From assembly GCF_900696045.1 (NCBI RefSeq), contig NZ_LR216287.1, forward strand, positions 2,709,854-2,773,853: a stretch of DNA of 64,000 nucleotides, read 5' to 3'. Below the pieces are notes generated by a model. The model saw nothing but the letters and a program-made list of their open reading frames with translations, did no database searches and was not told the origin of the DNA. Both the position numbers and the translations under genes were made by a program. This stretch comes from Candidatus Nitrosocosmicus franklandus. GTDB lineage: Archaea; Thermoproteota; Nitrososphaeria; Nitrososphaerales; Nitrososphaeraceae. Shown here piece after piece: positions 9,380 through 21,845 of this stretch. Position 1 is the first letter of the stretch; the number at the start of each line of letters is the position of its first letter.

Positions 9380-10258
9380 AATATTATTACAATGTCCATG
9401 TTATTCGTAGGTTTGGGTGAAACCAAACAAGATAAGAAAAATTGAGGATACCATTGAATAAGAATTGTATTCGCCCTTTAACATATGTTTTCATTATTTG
9501 TTCAGACATTCTTAATTCGACCATCAAATTTATTATGATTTAAATAATTATGTTCCAAATAACTCAATCGGATGAAAGAACAGAGGCTTAATTTCCGCCG
9601 CTTTACTCCGGTTTTCAGCATCGTAATATATCGACTTAAAAATAAAATATTTTTCAGTTTGATTATTTGAGGAAGATGGCAGTTAACCCTGGATCTAACA
9701 TATCTCATTTAACTGGTAGCTAATTCAAATCATAAATTACTTATATTTGGTAATTATAAAATTTCTTTTTGAAATAAGACGAATCTATAATCATTGTAGG
9801 ATTAATATTCAAAGAATAAAACTAAATTTAATTAAGCAGAATTATGAATTATATACCTATCATAAAGTTATGTTAATTTGATACGGTATTCTACTAGTTT
9901 TTTTAAAAATAGATATAAAGAGAAAACTAAATTACAGACTAGGTGGAATTTTGAAAAAATATTCCAAATGTTCCTAATCTGTAATTGCATGAACATTTAT
10001 ACATTCACAGTCGTAGAGCTGCGAGATCTATTTTTAGATTAGAAATAATAATATTCTTTTTATGCATGAAAAACTTTCTGTGTATGTGATATTTTCGCAT
10101 ATGAATTTTTGAAATTGCTTGATAAGGGAGAGAGAGAACAAATAATACATATTATTATTATAATTTATAGACCCTGTAATGTTATTCTAAATCGGTTCTT
10201 GACATTAAAAGTAATTTGATATTATGAATAAAAAATTTTATAGTATAGTTTCGAAAAA
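9380..10258. other. 880-bp non-coding stretch with an imperfect hairpin
   Basis: No credible gene on either strand. An inverted repeat has outer arms at 9931-9943 and 9973-9985 (12 of 13 positions complementary) and inner arms GGAAT 9945-9949 and ATTCC 9961-9965. It could be a transcript hairpin or the remnant of a miniature element. Confidence 0.45.
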
Positions 10259-10492
10259 TTACTGATTTGTCTGTAATGTAGAATTTCCTTCGGTCCAGTT
10301 TCCGGTATGATTAGAGCTTGTTGAATTCAGATAAGAAGTATTATTTTCGTTAAGACCAAGATGTATGTCATTACTAATCGATTCGTTTTGCGAAAATGCC
10401 ATATTCGTATTACTGATAACTACTACTCCGACGAGAAGAGTCACTGCGATTCCAACAAAAAGACTATTTTGAAATATTTTGTTATTCATCAA
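10259..10492 (-). CDS. Small exported Asn/Ser-rich protein
   Basis: 77 residues: a positively charged start (MMNNK), a hydrophobic core (SLFVGIAVTLLVGVVVI) and a likely cleavage region around SNTNMAFSQN, followed by a short mature part of about 43 residues rich in Asn, Ser and Thr with at least five N-x-S/T sequons. This fits a secreted or surface-tethered small glycoprotein. No family recognised. Its operator or partner is not evident from the neighbourhood. Confidence 0.6.
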   Translation of the reverse strand: MMNNKIFQNSLFVGIAVTLLVGVVVISNTNMAFSQNESISNDIHLGLNENNTSYLNSTSSNHTGNWTEGNSTLQTNQ

Positions 10493-10723
10493 TTCTTATC
10501 GAATCTGCTAGTTATTTTATTCCTTTTATCTATGCAAATTAAAAAGAGTAGGTGTAAAACCTACATATTTATTTCTAGTTCGCTTACTTGTCATGCAGTA
10601 ATTAAGGACGGAGAAATTTAATAAAATGATGATCACAAGATGGATAGATAGATAAAAATCGAGTTTGAAATCCCTTATATGGGATAATATCTACTTTCAC
10701 ATTTTAAACAGATTGACTCTTGC

Positions 10724-11330
10724 TTACACCTGTTTTAACTTTTGCAGTTCACTTAAATAGTTGCCATATCTCTTTGAGAATCCTTTCTCATCGATGTCAA
10801 AATGAATATCAATATTATTTGGTTCCGAAATGATGGCAAACTGGGTTAAGAGTTTTCTAAACTCTGGGTCATATTTTAAATTATTATATTCGTTTAGTAT
10901 TAATGACAATAGTAGCACCAACCTTCTTCTTAGTCCTAATATAAGAAACGCATGGATTAGATATATTCTAGCATCAAAAGAATCACTATTTAATGCAGAC
11001 AGGTAAAATTCAAACAAAAGATTCTTTAAAGGTAATCCAGAGCCATCTTTTAGCAGCAATCTGTACCTCCTGGGACTCTACAAATTCTTCAATTCTTGCA
11101 TCTTTTAGGAGCTTGTTGAACAACTTAACTATTTCCCGGAGACTAATAGTTTCTTTTCCCATTTCTAAAACACCAAGCCTTACAGCAATTCGATCTCTAT
11201 CCTCTAAATAAAATTGTGTCTACATCAGTGTTCGCTTGAAGTTTACTAATACCGTCCGCAGTTGTTTCAATTGGAATAAATTCAATCAACTTCTCTAGTT
11301 CCTTAAAGATTCCATATGATAAATGGAACT
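10724..11330 (-). pseudogene. Decayed gene, function not recognised
   Basis: Three frames join into one protein-like string. From upstream: about 11328-11208 encodes a segment ending NTDVDTILF, a one-base shift leads into EDRDRIAVRLGVLEMGKETISLREIVKLFNKLLKDA (about 11208-11050), and a second shift leads into DGSGLPLKNLLFEFYLSAL and on to the stop at 10724. A start codon is not evident. The last segment alone (111 codons) is an intact frame beginning with TTG. Composition is helical and charged, as in a cytosolic regulator or adaptor protein. I do not recognise the family. Two frameshifts and the missing start make an inactive gene likely. Confidence 0.5.
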
Positions 11331-13590: not shown

Positions 13591-13734
13591 TATGCAAATT
13601 TTCAAAAGCCAATCTAACAAAAAAGTTAATAGTTATGGATGCATAAAATTCTAGATATCTGCAATTTATGCATATTTTTACTAATCCTGCATAAAGAAAT
13701 TAAAATATATATTTTTGTAGACAAAAACTATGCA
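13591..13734 (+). promoter_or_regulatory. Cluster of TGCA/TGCATA motifs and TATA box upstream of the ABC importer
   Basis: The tetramer TGCA occurs at 13593, 13640, 13660, 13669, 13688 and 13731, five of the six within TGCATA or TATGCA. This density is far above what a 35 percent GC sequence should give. A TATA-like run (TAAAATATATATTTTT) lies at about 13700-13716, some 28 bases before the TTG at 13735. The same core occurs at 15749 and 15800 before the ComA-HTH gene. I read this as an operator array; the binding protein is unknown. Confidence 0.45.
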
Positions 13735-14616
13735 TTGTCTAAATTATCAACCACGTTTCAGACTAATGATAAACCGATTCTAAAGTTAGAGAACATATAC
13801 AAAGAATACCATGAGAAGAAGAATCAAATCCATTCTTATAAACACGTTGTAATTAACAAACTTAATCTCCATATTCGAGAAGGAGAGTTTGTTACTATCG
13901 TTGGTCCTTCAGGTTGTGGAAAAAGTACATTACTCAATTTGGTTGCAGGATTGGATCCGATATTTGACGGCAAGATACATGTTGATGAAATACCTATAAA
14001 CAGATCACCTGATACTGACCGTGTTGTAGTATTTCAAGAAGGGGCCTTGTTCCCATGGTTGACCGTTTATGAAAACATCGAATTTGGATTAAAGATTGCA
14101 AGAGTACCAAGGAATAAAAGAAAAGAAAAGGTGCTCAAACTTATAGAAATGGTTCAGTTATTAAACTTCACCAATGCTTACATTCATCAATTATCTGGAG
14201 GTATGAAACAGAGGGTGGCAATAGCCAGAGCATTAGCACTAGACCCAAAAATATTGTTGATGGATGAACCATTCGCAGCCTTAGATGTCCAAACTAGAAA
14301 AATACTCTATAACCACCTTTTAAGGATTCACGAAGAGACCAAAAAAACGATCCTCTTTGTTACACACAATATCCATGAAGCTGTCACTCTTGGAGATAGA
14401 GTAATAATAATGTCTCCAAAATTAGCCAATATAAAAAAGCAAATTATTGTGAATATCCCCAGACCCAGAAGCATTGATCATCCTCTTGTAGAATCAATAA
14501 CTAGAGAAGTAATTTCCGAATCAAATGATTTATTTGCAATTGATAATAAGATTGCCGGAGGCGACCCCGATAATGAAATTATAGCCAACGGGGATATGAC
14601 TTCGCTAGTTAGATAG
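13735..14616 (+). CDS. ABC transporter ATP-binding protein, nitrate/sulfonate/taurine importer type
   Basis: Nucleotide-binding subunit of an SsuB/TauB/NrtD-type importer. Walker A GPSGCGKST, Q-loop VVVFQEGALFPW, signature LSGGMKQR, Walker B ILLMDEPFAALD and the switch His in VTHNIHEA are all intact. The frame opens at an ATG at 13639, but its first 32 residues are hydrophobic and unlike the family; a TTG at 13735 (MSKLSTTF) sits about 28 bases from a TATA-like element, so I prefer it (293 residues). The permease begins 8 bases after the stop, which marks an operon. It probably energises both permease copies of this locus. The substrate cannot be fixed: sulfonates, taurine, nitrate/cyanate or thiamine precursors are all carried by this subfamily. 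Confidence 0.88.
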   Translation: MSKLSTTFQTNDKPILKLENIYKEYHEKKNQIHSYKHVVINKLNLHIREGEFVTIVGPSGCGKSTLLNLVAGLDPIFDGKIHVDEIPINRSPDTDRVVVFQEGALFPWLTVYENIEFGLKIARVPRNKRKEKVLKLIEMVQLLNFTNAYIHQLSGGMKQRVAIARALALDPKILLMDEPFAALDVQTRKILYNHLLRIHEETKKTILFVTHNIHEAVTLGDRVIIMSPKLANIKKQIIVNIPRPRSIDHPLVESITREVISESNDLFAIDNKIAGGDPDNEIIANGDMTSLVR

Positions 14617-14624
14617 TATCAAAA

Positions 14625-15443
14625 ATGCAAAGACTACAAAGTCGGTTAAATAAACCAGAGAAAAGAATCGATCTCAAAGGTTTTTCTAACACAATCTTAT
14701 TTATTGCAGTGTTTATTGGTATATGGCAAATTGCCTATCTAAGTGGAATCTGGCCTAAGGTATCGTTACCTTCACCTATAATGGTGGTAGAAGCATTCTA
14801 TGATCTTATTTTAGACAACACGTTGCTAGTAAGTATAGGAATAACGCTTTACAGACTCTTGATTGGATTTGCGGTTTCAATTGTAATAGGTATTGGTGTA
14901 GGACTTGCGATGGTAAAGTTCACTGGATTTGGTAAAACAATGAGCTCATTTGCTATAGGATTGCAGTCATTTCCCAGTGTAGCTTGGGTACCCTTTGCTA
15001 TATTGCTTATCGGTTTGAATGATATTGGCATCCTGTTTGTAGTTATTATGAGTTCTGTATTTTCGGTTATGATATCAGCGTATAGCGGTATAAGAAATAT
15101 ACCTCCTATTTATTTAAAGGCTGCAAGAAATATGGGAGCAAAGGGTTTCGCCCTGTTTAGACATTTAATGATTCCAGCGGCAACACCTGCTCTGATAGTA
15201 GGAATCAAACAAGCATGGTCGTTTGCGTGGCACGCACTTGTAGGAGCAGAAATCCTAATGGCCGCATCCATAGGGATAGGACATATACTACTAGTAGGAA
15301 GAGAGTTTCAACTAATGGATCAGATAATAGCATCCATGATCACAATTTTCGCATTAGGAATGATATTTGATAAGGTAATCTTTGCAAAGTTAGATGACAA
15401 AGTTAGAGAAAAGTGGGGTCTAAGGCATGAACAAATAAGTTGA
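14625..15443 (+). CDS. ABC transporter permease, SsuC/TauC-like (copy 1)
   Basis: 272-residue inner-membrane subunit with six membrane segments and the BPD_transp_1 coupling motif AARNMGAKGFALFRHLMIPAATPA, in which the EAA-type G is present (written here as positions about 165-188). The start is ATG 14625 directly after the ATPase gene. From Ser at FSNTILF to RHEQ the DNA (14683-15434) is identical to copy 2; the first 20 residues and the last two differ. Pairs with the upstream ATPase. Confidence 0.9.
   Translation: MQRLQSRLNKPEKRIDLKGFSNTILFIAVFIGIWQIAYLSGIWPKVSLPSPIMVVEAFYDLILDNTLLVSIGITLYRLLIGFAVSIVIGIGVGLAMVKFTGFGKTMSSFAIGLQSFPSVAWVPFAILLIGLNDIGILFVVIMSSVFSVMISAYSGIRNIPPIYLKAARNMGAKGFALFRHLMIPAATPALIVGIKQAWSFAWHALVGAEILMAASIGIGHILLVGREFQLMDQIIASMITIFALGMIFDKVIFAKLDDKVREKWGLRHEQIS
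14683..15434 (+). repeat. 752-bp perfect direct repeat, copy 1 (permease core)
   Basis: Identical in my reading to 18248-18999, at a constant offset of 3565 bases, and bounded on both sides by unrelated sequence. It covers all but the ends of the permease reading frame, including silent positions. Confidence 0.9.
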
Positions 15444-15845
15444 TAATAGTCCATTAAACAATATATTGTAGAAAAGATAAAGGAGTTCTTTATGTAAGCA
15501 ATTTGTTACCTAATTAACTAACCATAACAATTTTTAGATAATACAACAGACTTTATTAATATTAACAATCAGATTCATTGACTCAACAATTCGTTCCACC
15601 ATGGCATTTCTAATGCTAATATATAATAACGTATTCACGAGCAAATAAAGAAAACAAAATCTTCTAAGCTTCCCTTTTTGTATCGATAAAAAATTATCAG
15701 AACCCTGGTAAATTTGCCATATCACAATCGATCTTAATGCGAGAAATTTGCATATTATATGAAAATTATAACCTAAAATTTATGGCTGGGAGACAAAAAT
15801 GCATATATCAATTTCATTATATGTAAAACCTGCGTATATCATTTT
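15444..15845 (+). promoter_or_regulatory. Intergenic region with TGCATA motifs before the ComA-HTH gene
   Basis: No gene seen (a minus-strand frame at 15534-15725 is not credible). TGCATA occurs at 15749-15754 and 15800-15805, and a related TGCGTATA lies at about 15831. The same core is clustered before the ABC ATPase gene, suggesting shared regulation. Confidence 0.4.
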
Positions 15846-16832
15846 ATGTTAGAAAGTCTAAGTGGGGATCGCATAGATCAAAATAAACCACGTCATGATG
15901 GTATTACCTACATAATAGACAAATTCCAAGGTTTGGACAAGGAGAATTTTGAAACAATTTCATCATATATCGATATGGTAAAGATCTACAGTGCTTTTCC
16001 TCTTCTTTTAAAGGAAGAGAGCCTAATTAAGAGAATCGATTTTTATCATAGCTTAAATGTATTGGTATCAACAGGCAGTACCCTAACCGAATATGCCATT
16101 CGCGAAAATGTATTTGAAAAATTTGTCGAAAGTTCCAAGAGATTGGGATTTGATTTAATAGAGATAAGTGAAAACAGCATTCATTTAACGCTCGAAGAAA
16201 AGAAAAAAATAATAAAAATTCTCAATGCTCATGATATTAGAGCACAGTGGAAGATTGGAAAAAAAGATCCCAGAAGACAACTTTCTGTTGAAGAGACCGT
16301 AAGGAAAATGAGCGAAATTTTAGAAATTAGCCAAGAAAAAATAATTCTCGAAGCAAATTTAGGTTATAATGTAGGGATATACGATGAAAAAGGAGATATC
16401 AAATGGAATCTCCTTTCGGCCATAACATCAAAGGTATCGCCAAATAGTATCATTTTTGAAGCTCCGTTAGAAATACAACAAGCTGTACTAATAGCTGAAT
16501 TTGGTCAAAGAGTAAACCTTGGAGAAATACGACTGGAGAATGTTTTGTCTGTTGAATCCCAGAGGAGAGGATTTCTTTCGAAAGCCAGCTTCAGCATTAC
16601 ACCTGTTAGAAAAGGCCCAGAGGGAAGCCCTGCCACTAAATTTATTCATTACATTATCCGCAACAAACATCCCATCGATCAAAGTGAGCTGATGTATGTG
16701 ACAAATTTACCTAGAAGAACAGTGCAAGCCTCAATAGAGGAGTTGAAACAACAAGGGCTCATAATTGAAAAAAATAGCCTAGATGACACTAGAAAGAAAG
16801 TCTACAACTTGGTGAAAAATGAATGGATATAA
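15846..16832 (+). CDS. ComA-like (phosphosulfolactate synthase fold) protein with C-terminal winged helix
   Basis: 328 residues. Residues 1 to about 260 follow the ComA/HSA32 TIM-barrel family: DGITYIIDK, SYIDMVKI, STGSTLTEYA, LGFDLIEIS, IGKKD, IIFEAPLEIQQ and VNLGEIRLENVLSVESQRRGF align in order with (2R)-phospho-3-sulfolactate synthase. Several catalytic-region residues differ from what I recall of ComA: the FGWGTS segment is IYSAFP, GGT is GST, EVGKK is KIGKK and the EGRESG segment is EANLGY. About residues 265-328 form a MarR/ArsR-like winged helix (SELMYVTNLPRRTVQASIEE, then LKQQGLIIEK). The normal enzyme is about 250 residues with no DNA-binding part. It lies inside a sulfonate-type ABC locus, between the two permease copies. 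I infer a ligand-sensing regulator derived from a sulfonate enzyme. Confidence 0.75.
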   Translation: MLESLSGDRIDQNKPRHDGITYIIDKFQGLDKENFETISSYIDMVKIYSAFPLLLKEESLIKRIDFYHSLNVLVSTGSTLTEYAIRENVFEKFVESSKRLGFDLIEISENSIHLTLEEKKKIIKILNAHDIRAQWKIGKKDPRRQLSVEETVRKMSEILEISQEKIILEANLGYNVGIYDEKGDIKWNLLSAITSKVSPNSIIFEAPLEIQQAVLIAEFGQRVNLGEIRLENVLSVESQRRGFLSKASFSITPVRKGPEGSPATKFIHYIIRNKHPIDQSELMYVTNLPRRTVQASIEELKQQGLIIEKNSLDDTRKKVYNLVKNEWI

Positions 16833-18087: not shown

Positions 18088-19017
18088 TTGAAAACATACT
18101 CGGCGGACAACAATGACCGTGATTTTGATGGCAATGTTGATCGCGAGAAAGGAGTTGGCGCGATAGAAGAATCAGAACTAATTTCATCCAAAACAGGTAA
18201 ACATACTAGAAAGCGTTCTTTCAAGGGCGCCTTCAAGATAGAAGAGCTTTCTAACACAATCTTATTTATTGCAGTGTTTATTGGTATATGGCAAATTGCC
18301 TATCTAAGTGGAATCTGGCCTAAGGTATCGTTACCTTCACCTATAATGGTGGTAGAAGCATTCTATGATCTTATTTTAGACAACACGTTGCTAGTAAGTA
18401 TAGGAATAACGCTTTACAGACTCTTGATTGGATTTGCGGTTTCAATTGTAATAGGTATTGGTGTAGGACTTGCGATGGTAAAGTTCACTGGATTTGGTAA
18501 AACAATGAGCTCATTTGCTATAGGATTGCAGTCATTTCCCAGTGTAGCTTGGGTACCCTTTGCTATATTGCTTATCGGTTTGAATGATATTGGCATCCTG
18601 TTTGTAGTTATTATGAGTTCTGTATTTTCGGTTATGATATCAGCGTATAGCGGTATAAGAAATATACCTCCTATTTATTTAAAGGCTGCAAGAAATATGG
18701 GAGCAAAGGGTTTCGCCCTGTTTAGACATTTAATGATTCCAGCGGCAACACCTGCTCTGATAGTAGGAATCAAACAAGCATGGTCGTTTGCGTGGCACGC
18801 ACTTGTAGGAGCAGAAATCCTAATGGCCGCATCCATAGGGATAGGACATATACTACTAGTAGGAAGAGAGTTTCAACTAATGGATCAGATAATAGCATCC
18901 ATGATCACAATTTTCGCATTAGGAATGATATTTGATAAGGTAATCTTTGCAAAGTTAGATGACAAAGTTAGAGAAAAGTGGGGTCTAAGGCATGAACAAG
19001 ATATCGAAACCAAATAA
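18088..19017 (+). CDS. ABC transporter permease, SsuC/TauC-like (copy 2)
   Basis: 309 residues starting at TTG 18088. The first 53 residues are a hydrophilic, acidic/basic extension absent from copy 1 (DREKGVGAIEESE and TRKRSFKG); from LSNTILF to RHEQ the protein and DNA are identical to copy 1, after which it ends DIETK. Six membrane segments and the coupling motif are as in copy 1. It precedes the two solute-binding proteins, so it may be the membrane subunit used with them and the single ATPase. The extension could mediate a separate interaction. Confidence 0.88.
   Translation: MKTYSADNNDRDFDGNVDREKGVGAIEESELISSKTGKHTRKRSFKGAFKIEELSNTILFIAVFIGIWQIAYLSGIWPKVSLPSPIMVVEAFYDLILDNTLLVSIGITLYRLLIGFAVSIVIGIGVGLAMVKFTGFGKTMSSFAIGLQSFPSVAWVPFAILLIGLNDIGILFVVIMSSVFSVMISAYSGIRNIPPIYLKAARNMGAKGFALFRHLMIPAATPALIVGIKQAWSFAWHALVGAEILMAASIGIGHILLVGREFQLMDQIIASMITIFALGMIFDKVIFAKLDDKVREKWGLRHEQDIETK
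18248..18999 (+). repeat. 752-bp perfect direct repeat, copy 2 (permease core)
   Basis: Partner of 14683-15434 at offset 3565. The boundaries fall inside both reading frames, leaving different N- and C-termini, which fits homogenisation by gene conversion better than a whole-gene duplication. Confidence 0.9.
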
Positions 19018-19178
19018 AAAGCTAACAAATCCGTGGTTTTAGAGGGTTATTCTTAATCATCAATGTATTATTAATCCAATAGATTAATCATCGGCCCATG
19101 CAAAAATTTCGCGTAACGAGCGTTTTTTGCCTATTTCATATTACTAATAGGTGGCTGACAGAGAAAATTACGTGTTCC

Positions 19179-20336
19179 ATGAATTCCAAAGCAAAATTAG
19201 GGATATCTGCTGCCATATTAATAGGAGTAATAGTATCATCCAACACGGGCTTTGATTGGTCCGTATTGTCTGGTCAAATTTCAAATACAATTCAATCTAA
19301 TGATGGAGGTAGTGATTTGCAATCTGATACGTTGAATATAGGATACTTTCCCAACGTTAACTTAGCCCAAGCGATAATAGGAATTGGAACAGGAAATATT
19401 AGCAAATCAATTACGGAGTCTATCGAAGACAGAAATTTTACGATTAATGCACGAGCTTTTAATTCAGGTCCTTCAATGGTTGACGCTTTGTATTCTGGTC
19501 GGATAGATGTTGCGTATATTGGTCCGAATAATATAATCGATGGATTCATACTTTCTGGAGCTGACGGTTTGCGAATTATATCTGGTGTTTCAAGCGGAGG
19601 TACTTCCTTTGTCGTAAGAAATGAATCGGGAATAGAATCAGTTAATGATCTAGGGGGGAAAAAGTTTGCAACACCACAATTAGGTAATACACAGGATGTG
19701 GCTTTGAGAAAATACTTGGTAGATAGTGGTTATAATACCATTGATAATGGAGGAAACGTAACCATTGTTGCATTAAAACCAGGTGATATCATATCTCAGT
19801 TTCAAAATAAAGAAATTGATGGTGCATGGGTCCCAGAACCTATAACTACTATCTTAGAACAACAATCAAATGCAAAAATTCTGGTTGACGAGAGGGATTT
19901 GTGGCCCGACGGTAAGTTTGTTACTGGCAACATAATTGTCAGAACAGATTACTTGAGAGATAATCCCGACGTAATCAAAAGGTTACTTGAAGCTCATGTG
20001 GATGAGACATTGTGGATAAACGAAAAACTACTCAAAACTGACGACAATAGTCCGGATGAGAACAAGGTATCTACACTCGTAATGGCGTTTAATAATGGAT
20101 TGAAAAATTTGACCGGAAAAACGTTTCCTGATAATCAGCTGTCAGAAGCACTATCCAGGATAGAATTTACAAACGATCCGTTATCTGACTCGTTATTGAA
20201 GATTACTGACTTGACCTACCAGTTTGGCTTCATTAAAAAAGGATCAGGCTGGAATGACGAATTTCAAGAATTGTACGATCTTACATTATTAAATGAAGTG
20301 CTAAGCGAGAAAGGATTACAAGCCATAAACAAATGA
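19179..20336 (+). CDS. ABC transporter solute-binding protein, SsuA/THI5-like (copy A)
   Basis: About 385 residues from ATG 19179 (MNSKAKLG). The frame starts at 19098, but the later ATG begins a proper export signal (ISAAILIGVIVSS). The mature part starts TLNIGYFPNVNLAQAIIGIG, the family's first strand and ligand-binding loop, and continues with GRIDVAYIGPNN and DGAWVPEPIT, residues that line the substrate cleft in SsuA/NrtA proteins. Two stretches of its DNA are identical to copy B. It captures the substrate outside the membrane and delivers it to the permease. Confidence 0.88.
   Translation: MNSKAKLGISAAILIGVIVSSNTGFDWSVLSGQISNTIQSNDGGSDLQSDTLNIGYFPNVNLAQAIIGIGTGNISKSITESIEDRNFTINARAFNSGPSMVDALYSGRIDVAYIGPNNIIDGFILSGADGLRIISGVSSGGTSFVVRNESGIESVNDLGGKKFATPQLGNTQDVALRKYLVDSGYNTIDNGGNVTIVALKPGDIISQFQNKEIDGAWVPEPITTILEQQSNAKILVDERDLWPDGKFVTGNIIVRTDYLRDNPDVIKRLLEAHVDETLWINEKLLKTDDNSPDENKVSTLVMAFNNGLKNLTGKTFPDNQLSEALSRIEFTNDPLSDSLLKITDLTYQFGFIKKGSGWNDEFQELYDLTLLNEVLSEKGLQAINK
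19629..19762 (+). repeat. 134-bp identical tract, copy A
   Basis: Identical to 21099-21232 (offset 1470), including the six-G run, with mismatches starting directly outside (19625, 19628 and after 19762). Confidence 0.88.
19896..20020 (+). repeat. 125-bp identical tract, copy A
   Basis: Identical to 21366-21490 at the same offset of 1470. The 133 bases between the two tracts have the same length in both genes but clearly different sequence. Confidence 0.88.
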
Positions 20337-20651
20337 TTATAGTATTCTTCTCTGCCAACCAATTTCTCCTCCATTTGTTTCACTAGCCACATTAAGTGGC
20401 AACTTCTAACAATAATCTGATTTAATAACTCAATCGTTCGTTGTTCAAAAATAGCCTAGAACAATATTAACAAAGTATTTTTTGTTTTCTGAAATTATTG
20501 AACTTTATTATTTGTCGTTTTTTTCTGATGTAGATATATACACCACATCGTCATTTTCGGTCGATGTTTTTTATGTGCTTAAATTACATAATTTCTTGAA
20601 AAATAGCGCATTAAAAATGAATAATAAATAACATGGAAGTAATATTAGTCA
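20337..20651. other. Intergenic with small hairpin after binding protein A
   Basis: A 5-bp stem GCCAC/GTGGC with loop ATTAA lies at 20386-20400; it may end the upstream transcript. The rest is an AT-rich leader for binding protein B. No gene seen. Confidence 0.35.
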
Positions 20652-21845
20652 ATGAATAAACTTATCAAAAAACCTTTATTCAATGGACCGAGGGATCATA
20701 ACCAAAAGAAGAGATCTCTTTCTATTGCAATGGTAATGGTTATTACTGCGGCTGTACTAATTGCTGCACCAATATCTGTAGCTAATGCACAATCTGCAGG
20801 AAGTTCACAAAAGACATTAAGGATCGGATATTTTCCAAATATCACACATTCACAAGCGGTTATTGGACTAAATAACGGCGATTTTCAAGAAATTCTAGGA
20901 GACAATGTCACTGTTGAAACATTTAGATTTAATGCAGGTCCTTCAGCAATAGAATCTTTACTTGCAGGTAGAATCGATGTTACCTACATTGGTCCTAATC
21001 CAGCTATCAACGGATACCTTCTTTCAAATGGCGAGGATGTAAGAGTAATAGCCGGATCTTCTAGTGGCGGTGCATCCTTTGTCGTAAGAAATGACTCTGG
21101 AATAGAATCAGTTAATGATCTAGGGGGGAAAAAGTTTGCAACACCACAATTAGGTAATACACAGGATGTGGCTTTGAGAAAATACTTGGTAGATAGTGGT
21201 TATAATACCATTGATAATGGAGGAAACGTAACTGTCCTTCCGATAGCCAATGCAGACATCTTAACCGTTTTTCTAAAAGGGGAAATCGATGGTGCATGGG
21301 TTCCTGAGCCATGGGCAACTAGATTAATCCAAGAAGCTGGAGGGAAAGTATTATTAGACGAAAGAGATTTGTGGCCCGACGGTAAGTTTGTTACTGGCAA
21401 CATAATTGTCAGAACAGATTACTTGAGAGATAATCCCGACGTAATCAAAAGGTTACTTGAAGCTCATGTGGATGAGACATTGTGGATAAATAACAACACA
21501 GAGGAGGCTGCTCGAGAATTTAACACTCAGCTTCAAAAATTAACGGGCCAACAGATTGATCCCCAAGTACTTGCCAATGCCTACTCAAAATTGGATATAA
21601 CTTACGATCCATTAAAGTTAACACTATACAAGAGTGCCAATGATGCGTATGACCTTGGATTTATTGAAAAAGGAAAGGAAAGACCCAATCTTTCAGGAAT
21701 ATACGATACGACAATACTAAATGAAGTACTAGCTGAGAAGGGACTTGCTCTAATAGATGGACAAACAGCATCAACTACACCAGAAACTTCATCGTCAAGC
21801 AACGGGACATCATCTGGAGATGCAATAGCAGATATAGTCGCATAA
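20652..21845 (+). CDS. ABC transporter solute-binding protein, SsuA/THI5-like (copy B)
   Basis: 397 residues with a clean signal peptide: Lys/Arg-rich start, core SIAMVMVITAAVLIAAPISV, A-N-A-Q cleavage site. The mature part begins TLRIGYFPNITHSQAVIGL and has GRIDVTYIGPNP and DGAWVPEPWA in the ligand cleft. The last 25 residues are a Ser/Thr/Gly-rich tail that could be a surface linker. The gene is separated from copy A by 315 bases and may have its own promoter. The differing cleft residues (PNN versus PNP, PIT versus PWA) suggest that A and B differ in ligand or affinity. Confidence 0.9.
   Translation: MNKLIKKPLFNGPRDHNQKKRSLSIAMVMVITAAVLIAAPISVANAQSAGSSQKTLRIGYFPNITHSQAVIGLNNGDFQEILGDNVTVETFRFNAGPSAIESLLAGRIDVTYIGPNPAINGYLLSNGEDVRVIAGSSSGGASFVVRNDSGIESVNDLGGKKFATPQLGNTQDVALRKYLVDSGYNTIDNGGNVTVLPIANADILTVFLKGEIDGAWVPEPWATRLIQEAGGKVLLDERDLWPDGKFVTGNIIVRTDYLRDNPDVIKRLLEAHVDETLWINNNTEEAAREFNTQLQKLTGQQIDPQVLANAYSKLDITYDPLKLTLYKSANDAYDLGFIEKGKERPNLSGIYDTTILNEVLAEKGLALIDGQTASTTPETSSSSNGTSSGDAIADIVA
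21099..21232 (+). repeat. 134-bp identical tract, copy B
   Basis: Partner of 19629-19762. Codes for the hinge-proximal segment from SGIESVNDLGG to NGGNV. Confidence 0.88.
21366..21490 (+). repeat. 125-bp identical tract, copy B
   Basis: Partner of 19896-20020. Codes for the segment from DLWPDGKFVTG to DETLWIN. Confidence 0.88.

Follow-up and report, generated by a model that had tools for sequence, protein, structure and literature searches.

A ComA-barrel/winged-helix protein as candidate one-component regulator of sulfonate-type uptake genes in soil ammonia-oxidizing archaea

ComA is a (2R)-phospho-3-sulfolactate (PSL) synthase (PF02679, TIGR03849), with solved structures of the Methanocaldococcus jannaschii enzyme (MjComA, 1qwg) and of a PSL synthase (1u83). 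MjComA and YitD of Bacillus subtilis have in common the motifs GWGTS, GGT, ISxG, EVG, xRESG and NLANI, which in the ComA-barrel topology stand at the C-terminal ends of strands. Other enzyme folds have become the sensors of one-component regulators: NrtR is a Nudix domain plus a winged helix, MocR/PdxR an aminotransferase plus a winged helix, FapR a hotdog fold plus a winged helix and ROK a kinase plus a winged helix; CggR/SorC are a further case. We know of no described regulator with a ComA barrel as sensor, and no published description of a ComA/winged-helix regulator was found in the open-licence literature.

The SsuABC and TauABC uptake systems are regulated by the LysR-type proteins Cbl and CysB. 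To our knowledge very few regulators have been characterised in soil ammonia-oxidizing archaea. The presence of sulfonate transporters in these organisms has been described without a known trigger, and N. viennensis was reported to have such transporters and to gain no growth benefit from the compounds tested, taurine included (PMC4129164).

The window, by which the whole stretch of 64,000 nucleotides analysed here is meant, comes from an archaeal genome of 2.84 Mb in a single contig. Its ORF 15846-16832 (+ strand) encodes a protein of 328 amino acids, the candidate one-component regulator, whose nearest named relatives are Candidatus Nitrosocosmicus records. Residues 12-244 (15879-16577, +) form a ComA TIM-barrel domain with rewritten strand-end motifs, and residues ~258-323 (16617-16814, +) a C-terminal winged helix with the recognition helix around LPRRTVQASIEELK. 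An earlier note, made from the letters of the sequence, had proposed this fusion, and both halves of it were recovered by profile searches. PF02679 matched the barrel with E=2.7e-65 (220.6 bits, passing the cut-off of 25.2), and M. jannaschii ComA found the protein by phmmer with 117 bits; the ComA equivalog model TIGR03849 (NCBIfam) gave 179.8 bits and missed its cut-off of 280 by 100 bits. The protein thus has the barrel and the motif order of ComA; it differs from ComA in the added winged helix, in about ten replaced motif positions and in a host that is without ComB.

The C-terminal domain is recognised, by profile and by predicted fold, as a winged-helix DNA-binding domain. Its closest HTH profiles are MarR_2, which matched 16/16 diverse homologues at E<=0.01 (best E=2.4e-7), and TrmB, which matched 13/16. 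The window protein scores under the Pfam cut-offs (for MarR_2, E=2.5e-4 over residues 267-316 and 24.6 bits, the cut-off being 27), and unlike MarR and TrmB proteins it has neither the MarR dimerisation domain nor the TrmB sensor domain. Three HTH cut-offs (HTH_11, HTH_24 and HTH_IclR) were passed by the basal homologue L059, and a profile of the domain retrieved MarR/SlyA winged helices of known structure (4mnu, E=1.1e-5). AlphaFold, given the C-terminal domain alone, predicted a core of helix, helix and recognition helix (pLDDT ~70-85) with wing strands of low confidence; the Foldseek matches of this model were mostly winged helices, with a probability often >0.9 and no E-value <0.04. The winged helix expected by the earlier note was supported by profile, by the cut-offs passed in L059 and by the HTH core of the domain model. 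A full-length AF2 model was poor because it was built from only six close homologues, with a partial barrel and a C-terminus without usable fold; two of its three best matches were nevertheless MjComA (1qwg) and PSL synthase (1u83), and it had several ComA motifs at C-terminal strand ends. Compared with a 92%-identical homologue, the gene has a dN of 0.042 and a dS of 1.40, indicating strong purifying selection on both domains. The reading as a pseudogene was dropped, dN being far under dS.

In the window protein about ten of the positions shared by MjComA and YitD are replaced, and for most of these the replacement runs through the whole set of 37 Nitrososphaeraceae copies. In M. jannaschii numbering the replacements in Nitrososphaeraceae are G45 to Y, W46 to G or S, S49 to P, G75 to S, G107 to N, E133 to K, R170 to N and N227 to E; G47, within G45-W46-G47, is likewise replaced. 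The changes quoted in the earlier note (FGWGTS to IYSAFP, EVGKK to KIGKK and EGRESG to EANLGY) are exact. Its term "enzyme relic" calls for some qualification: the catalytic motifs are changed, but each of the new residues P52, S78, K136, N171 and E227 (window numbering) is present in 37/37 Nitrososphaeraceae copies. From this uniformity over 37 sequences it follows that selection still acts on a rewritten pocket; judged from the alignment, the change is one of repurposing and not of decay.

The protein could still be catalytic, working on an imported sulfonate as a ComA-like lyase or synthase, with a winged helix that only tethers subunits or is accessory. This we consider quite improbable. 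Eleven core residues (D20, K43, E79, E103, G135, K137, E168, E205, Q212, E237 and R240 in M. jannaschii numbering) are indeed kept in 37/37 copies, and the gene lies beside uptake genes, as expected of a catabolic enzyme. However, G45-W46-G47, G75, G107, E133, R170 and N227 are lost, with charge swaps at E133K and N227E, the recognition helix LPRRTVQ is one of the most conserved stretches, and the promoters contain the conserved dyads described below. The host genome also speaks against a catalytic role: TauD was not found in it, an SsuD model matched none (0/7) of its luciferase-family proteins, and ComB (PF04029) had no match, control matches being obtained in 7 genomes. A host without ComB cannot make coenzyme M by the ComABC route, and a coenzyme M pathway was dropped for this reason.

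Full-length copies of the fusion, counted from the homologue table, are present in 45/61 sampled Nitrososphaeraceae genomes. The window genome has a second copy, 62% identical, and within its 2.84 Mb no stand-alone ComA. The fusion is found also in two other families of the same order (f8 and f14; 40-44% identity), in family f9 and in two genomes of one genus of f43, which belongs to a different order. Among the genomes searched it occurs solely in archaea of this phylum; a scan of genome contigs with the window protein as single query gave near relatives only, and since one other family of the order supplied most of the phylum-wide sample, absence there says little for other groups. A maximum-likelihood tree built from the barrel places every winged-helix protein in a single clade (support 95/82), outside MjComA, YitD, the f61 proteins and the stand-alone proteins of the phylum. 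With the root at the midpoint, and with L052 and L048 on long branches, f43 branches first, then f14, then f8, then Nitrososphaeraceae together with f9. L048 contains, at 10166-11155, a strongly diverged second ComA/winged-helix copy (branch length 1.96) that has lost many core residues; the same ABC genes and a regular copy are close by.

The members from f43, f14 and f8 largely keep the ComA motifs (GWG or GW, GGT, EVGKK or AVGKK, EGRE and VNL(A/G)N) and have the winged helix, from which it follows that the fusion came first and the rewriting of the pocket later. These basal proteins are possibly, to judge from their motifs, catalytic regulators of sulfur uptake. A bifunctional trigger enzyme, at once working catalyst and regulator, as they might be, is very improbable for the window protein, which belongs to a branch without those residues. 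It may well be, though we lean slightly to the other side, that the family preserves living steps of a transition from enzyme to sensor, in which the winged helix was gained with the motifs complete and the pocket was then rewritten in Nitrososphaeraceae to give a dedicated sensor. If so, the main soil ammonia oxidizers would harbor a new class of organosulfur sensor; the graded set of homologues makes such a transition experimentally approachable.

In the window the gene stands amid ABC genes, all on the + strand: an ATPase of the SsuB/TauB/SaoA type (13735-14616; the ORF opens at 13639 and the TTG start at 13735 is inferred from relatives), an SsuC-like permease 1 (14625-15443), a permease 2 (18088-19017) and two substrate-binding proteins of the SsuA family (19098-20336 and 20652-21845). 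The putative sensor and the DNA-binding domain are on one chain, and that chain is encoded next to candidate target genes. The linkage is conserved: when the count is confined to copies flanked by 3 kb or more on both sides, 24 of 30 have a gene for a binding protein, ATPase or permease of the SsuA/TauA type within 4 kb, and the six exceptions include four of Nitrosocosmicus paralogue B and one f43 locus. The other neighbours (ABC1 kinase, NUDIX, QueC, TopoVI) are unrelated housekeeping genes. The position between two permease genes, to which the earlier note had drawn attention, is real in the window and is a peculiarity of Nitrosocosmicus; elsewhere the regulator gene is often divergent from the binding-protein operon, as at many loci of the Nitrososphaera type and of f8 and f14, where it faces binding protein, ATPase and permease. 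A divergent arrangement is the classic layout of a regulator. The note's proposal of a regulator acting on the adjacent ABC locus gained support from this linkage, from the promoter dyads and from the motif replacements, and the fusion protein probably controls the neighbouring sulfonate/taurine-type uptake genes, as far as gene order and promoters can tell.

The two permease genes are identical over 752 bp (14683-15434 and 18248-18999, 100%). The corresponding pair in L038 is 99.5% identical to each other and only 81% to that of the window, which indicates concerted evolution by gene conversion. The two binding-protein genes have a common block of 565 bp at 80%, and long stretches of identical protein sequence lie within these otherwise diverged genes, which suggests partial gene conversion between them as well.

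The locus resembles SsuABC/TauABC in that binding protein 2 scores above the cut-off of the SsuA family (202.6 against 163.5) and in that ATPase and permease are related; it differs in a genome without TauD or a recognised SsuD and in a candidate regulator that is not of the LysR type. The name sulfonate sensor is suggested by the SsuA/TauA-like binding proteins, by the sulfite-using ancestor enzyme and by the sulfur transporter beside basal members. Specificity shifts readily among the binding proteins of the NMT1/SsuA/TauA/NrtA superfamily, and the fusion protein could regulate the ABC genes in response to another ligand, such as phosphoenolpyruvate or another phospho-acid, a nitrate-like anion or a vitamin precursor. 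This reading, which differs from the sulfur-ligand reading in the ligand only and overlaps with it, is rather doubtful and by no means remote. It would agree with binding protein 1, which stays under the SsuA cut-off (148.7 against 163.5), and with the altered charges of the pocket, but the nearest solved relatives of binding protein 2 are TauA and SsuA, binders of taurine and sulfonates, and basal members lie near a PF04143 sulfur transporter. Both f43 copies (L069:1689-5679 and L099) are two genes away from a transporter of the YeeE/YedE type (PF04143 in L069), and in both the motif-complete ComA/winged-helix gene adjoins a peroxiredoxin gene.

Upstream of most ABC-linked Nitrososphaeraceae copies lies a 21-bp dyad, TATRYRCA-N5-TGYRYATA, 28-35 bp before the start codon. 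A dyad scan gave 14-16 of 16 matching positions in 15/23 ABC-linked copies, in 14 of these 15 at -28 to -35 and in nine with a shuffle p<0.005, whereas a score of at least 14/16 was reached by 0/10 copies without ABC linkage, the paralogue of the window genome included. Unbiased counting of gapped words upstream of 33 non-redundant copies found ATAT-N-TGCA in 13 loci compared with 1.1 in shuffles, and this word is the same element as the scored dyad. An operator version with a spacer of three was scored and dropped; the spacer of five gives perfect 16/16 dyads.

In the window the candidate operator O1, TATATGTA-aaacc-TGCGTATA (15818-15838, +), ends 7 bp before the start codon. It is the sole exact match to the relaxed dyad pattern in the 2.84-Mb genome, the pattern having been relaxed to fit O1. 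Genome-wide matches with one mismatch (L094-L097) were dropped, because a reversed control pattern gave three matches and because L094 and L095 are within ORFs. An extra half-site TGCATATATCA (15800-15810, +) recurs in related Nitrosocosmicus loci. Further upstream a weak second dyad, AATGCGAG-aaatt-TGCATATT (15736-15756, +; 12/16), was read from the sequence, and better versions of it occupy similar positions in L055 and L080.

Some of the ABC promoters have the dyad ~80-90 bp before the start codon. A candidate operator at 13656-13676 (+; 14/16, shuffle p=0.018) lies 79 bp before the inferred start of the ATPase, and the dyad before this gene recurs in L038 (-78, 15/16) and L049 (-90, 16/16); the ATPase promoters of L036 and L053 score 12-13 only. 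A weak dyad TATGTGCTTAAATTACATAAT (20572-20592, +; 12/16, not significant alone) is found 80 bp before binding protein 2, and dyads at -80 of this gene are present also in L034, L036, L038 and L056. Before permease 2 and binding protein 1 no dyad was detected in the window. The two f14 copies (L050 and L051) have just upstream of the ComA/winged-helix gene a different, conserved perfect palindrome (AATAACGnCGTTATA; AATAACGnCGTTAT), and the f14 recognition helix looks like that of the window; at the other basal loci no convincing dyad was seen.

Starting from the computationally observed fusion, its conservation, the ABC linkage, the dyad and the motif replacements, we consider it likely that the protein is a one-component regulator with a rewritten ComA barrel as sensor and a winged helix acting on the 21-bp dyad, by which it would repress its own gene and control the ABC genes. 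Rather than catalyse a reaction, the barrel, rewritten at its active-site end, would probably bind a small anionic metabolite, one that probably contains sulfur. This ligand is envisaged as an intracellular metabolite tied to sulfonate import that alters the binding of the winged helix to TATRYRCA-N5-TGYRYATA, for which the protein would have to be a dimer or higher oligomer. Most likely the fusion protein represses its own gene: autorepression is suggested because O1 spans 28-8 bp before the start codon and overlaps the start region. The SsuA/TauA-type uptake genes would also be controlled, perhaps by activation; sites 80-90 bp before ABC genes fit activation or repression. The proposed regulator would share with NrtR, MocR, FapR, ROK and CggR the enzyme fold as ligand sensor, the winged helix on the same chain, the place beside the target operon and the dyad operator (here predicted), and would differ from them in its ComA barrel and in the C-terminal position of the winged helix.

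Public annotation would name the protein phosphosulfolactate synthase, which implies coenzyme M biosynthesis in organisms without ComB. Databases would thus list as a coenzyme M enzyme a protein that in soil ammonia-oxidizing archaea most likely acts as a gene switch, and once such proteins are recognised as regulators, a false metabolic inference falls away. Organosulfur uptake in these archaea also gains a candidate transcription factor, together with a candidate operator and regulon.

A winged helix of the same kind, 34% identical to the window protein over 61 aa, is found at the C-terminus of a NAD-kinase-fold protein in L074:6794-7798 (-), at ~18.8-19.8 kb of genome C1. This is a second fusion of an enzyme with a winged helix, possibly a regulatory NAD kinase. 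Many genomes of the order have an ORF of ~330-380 aa to which the same winged helix gives a match.
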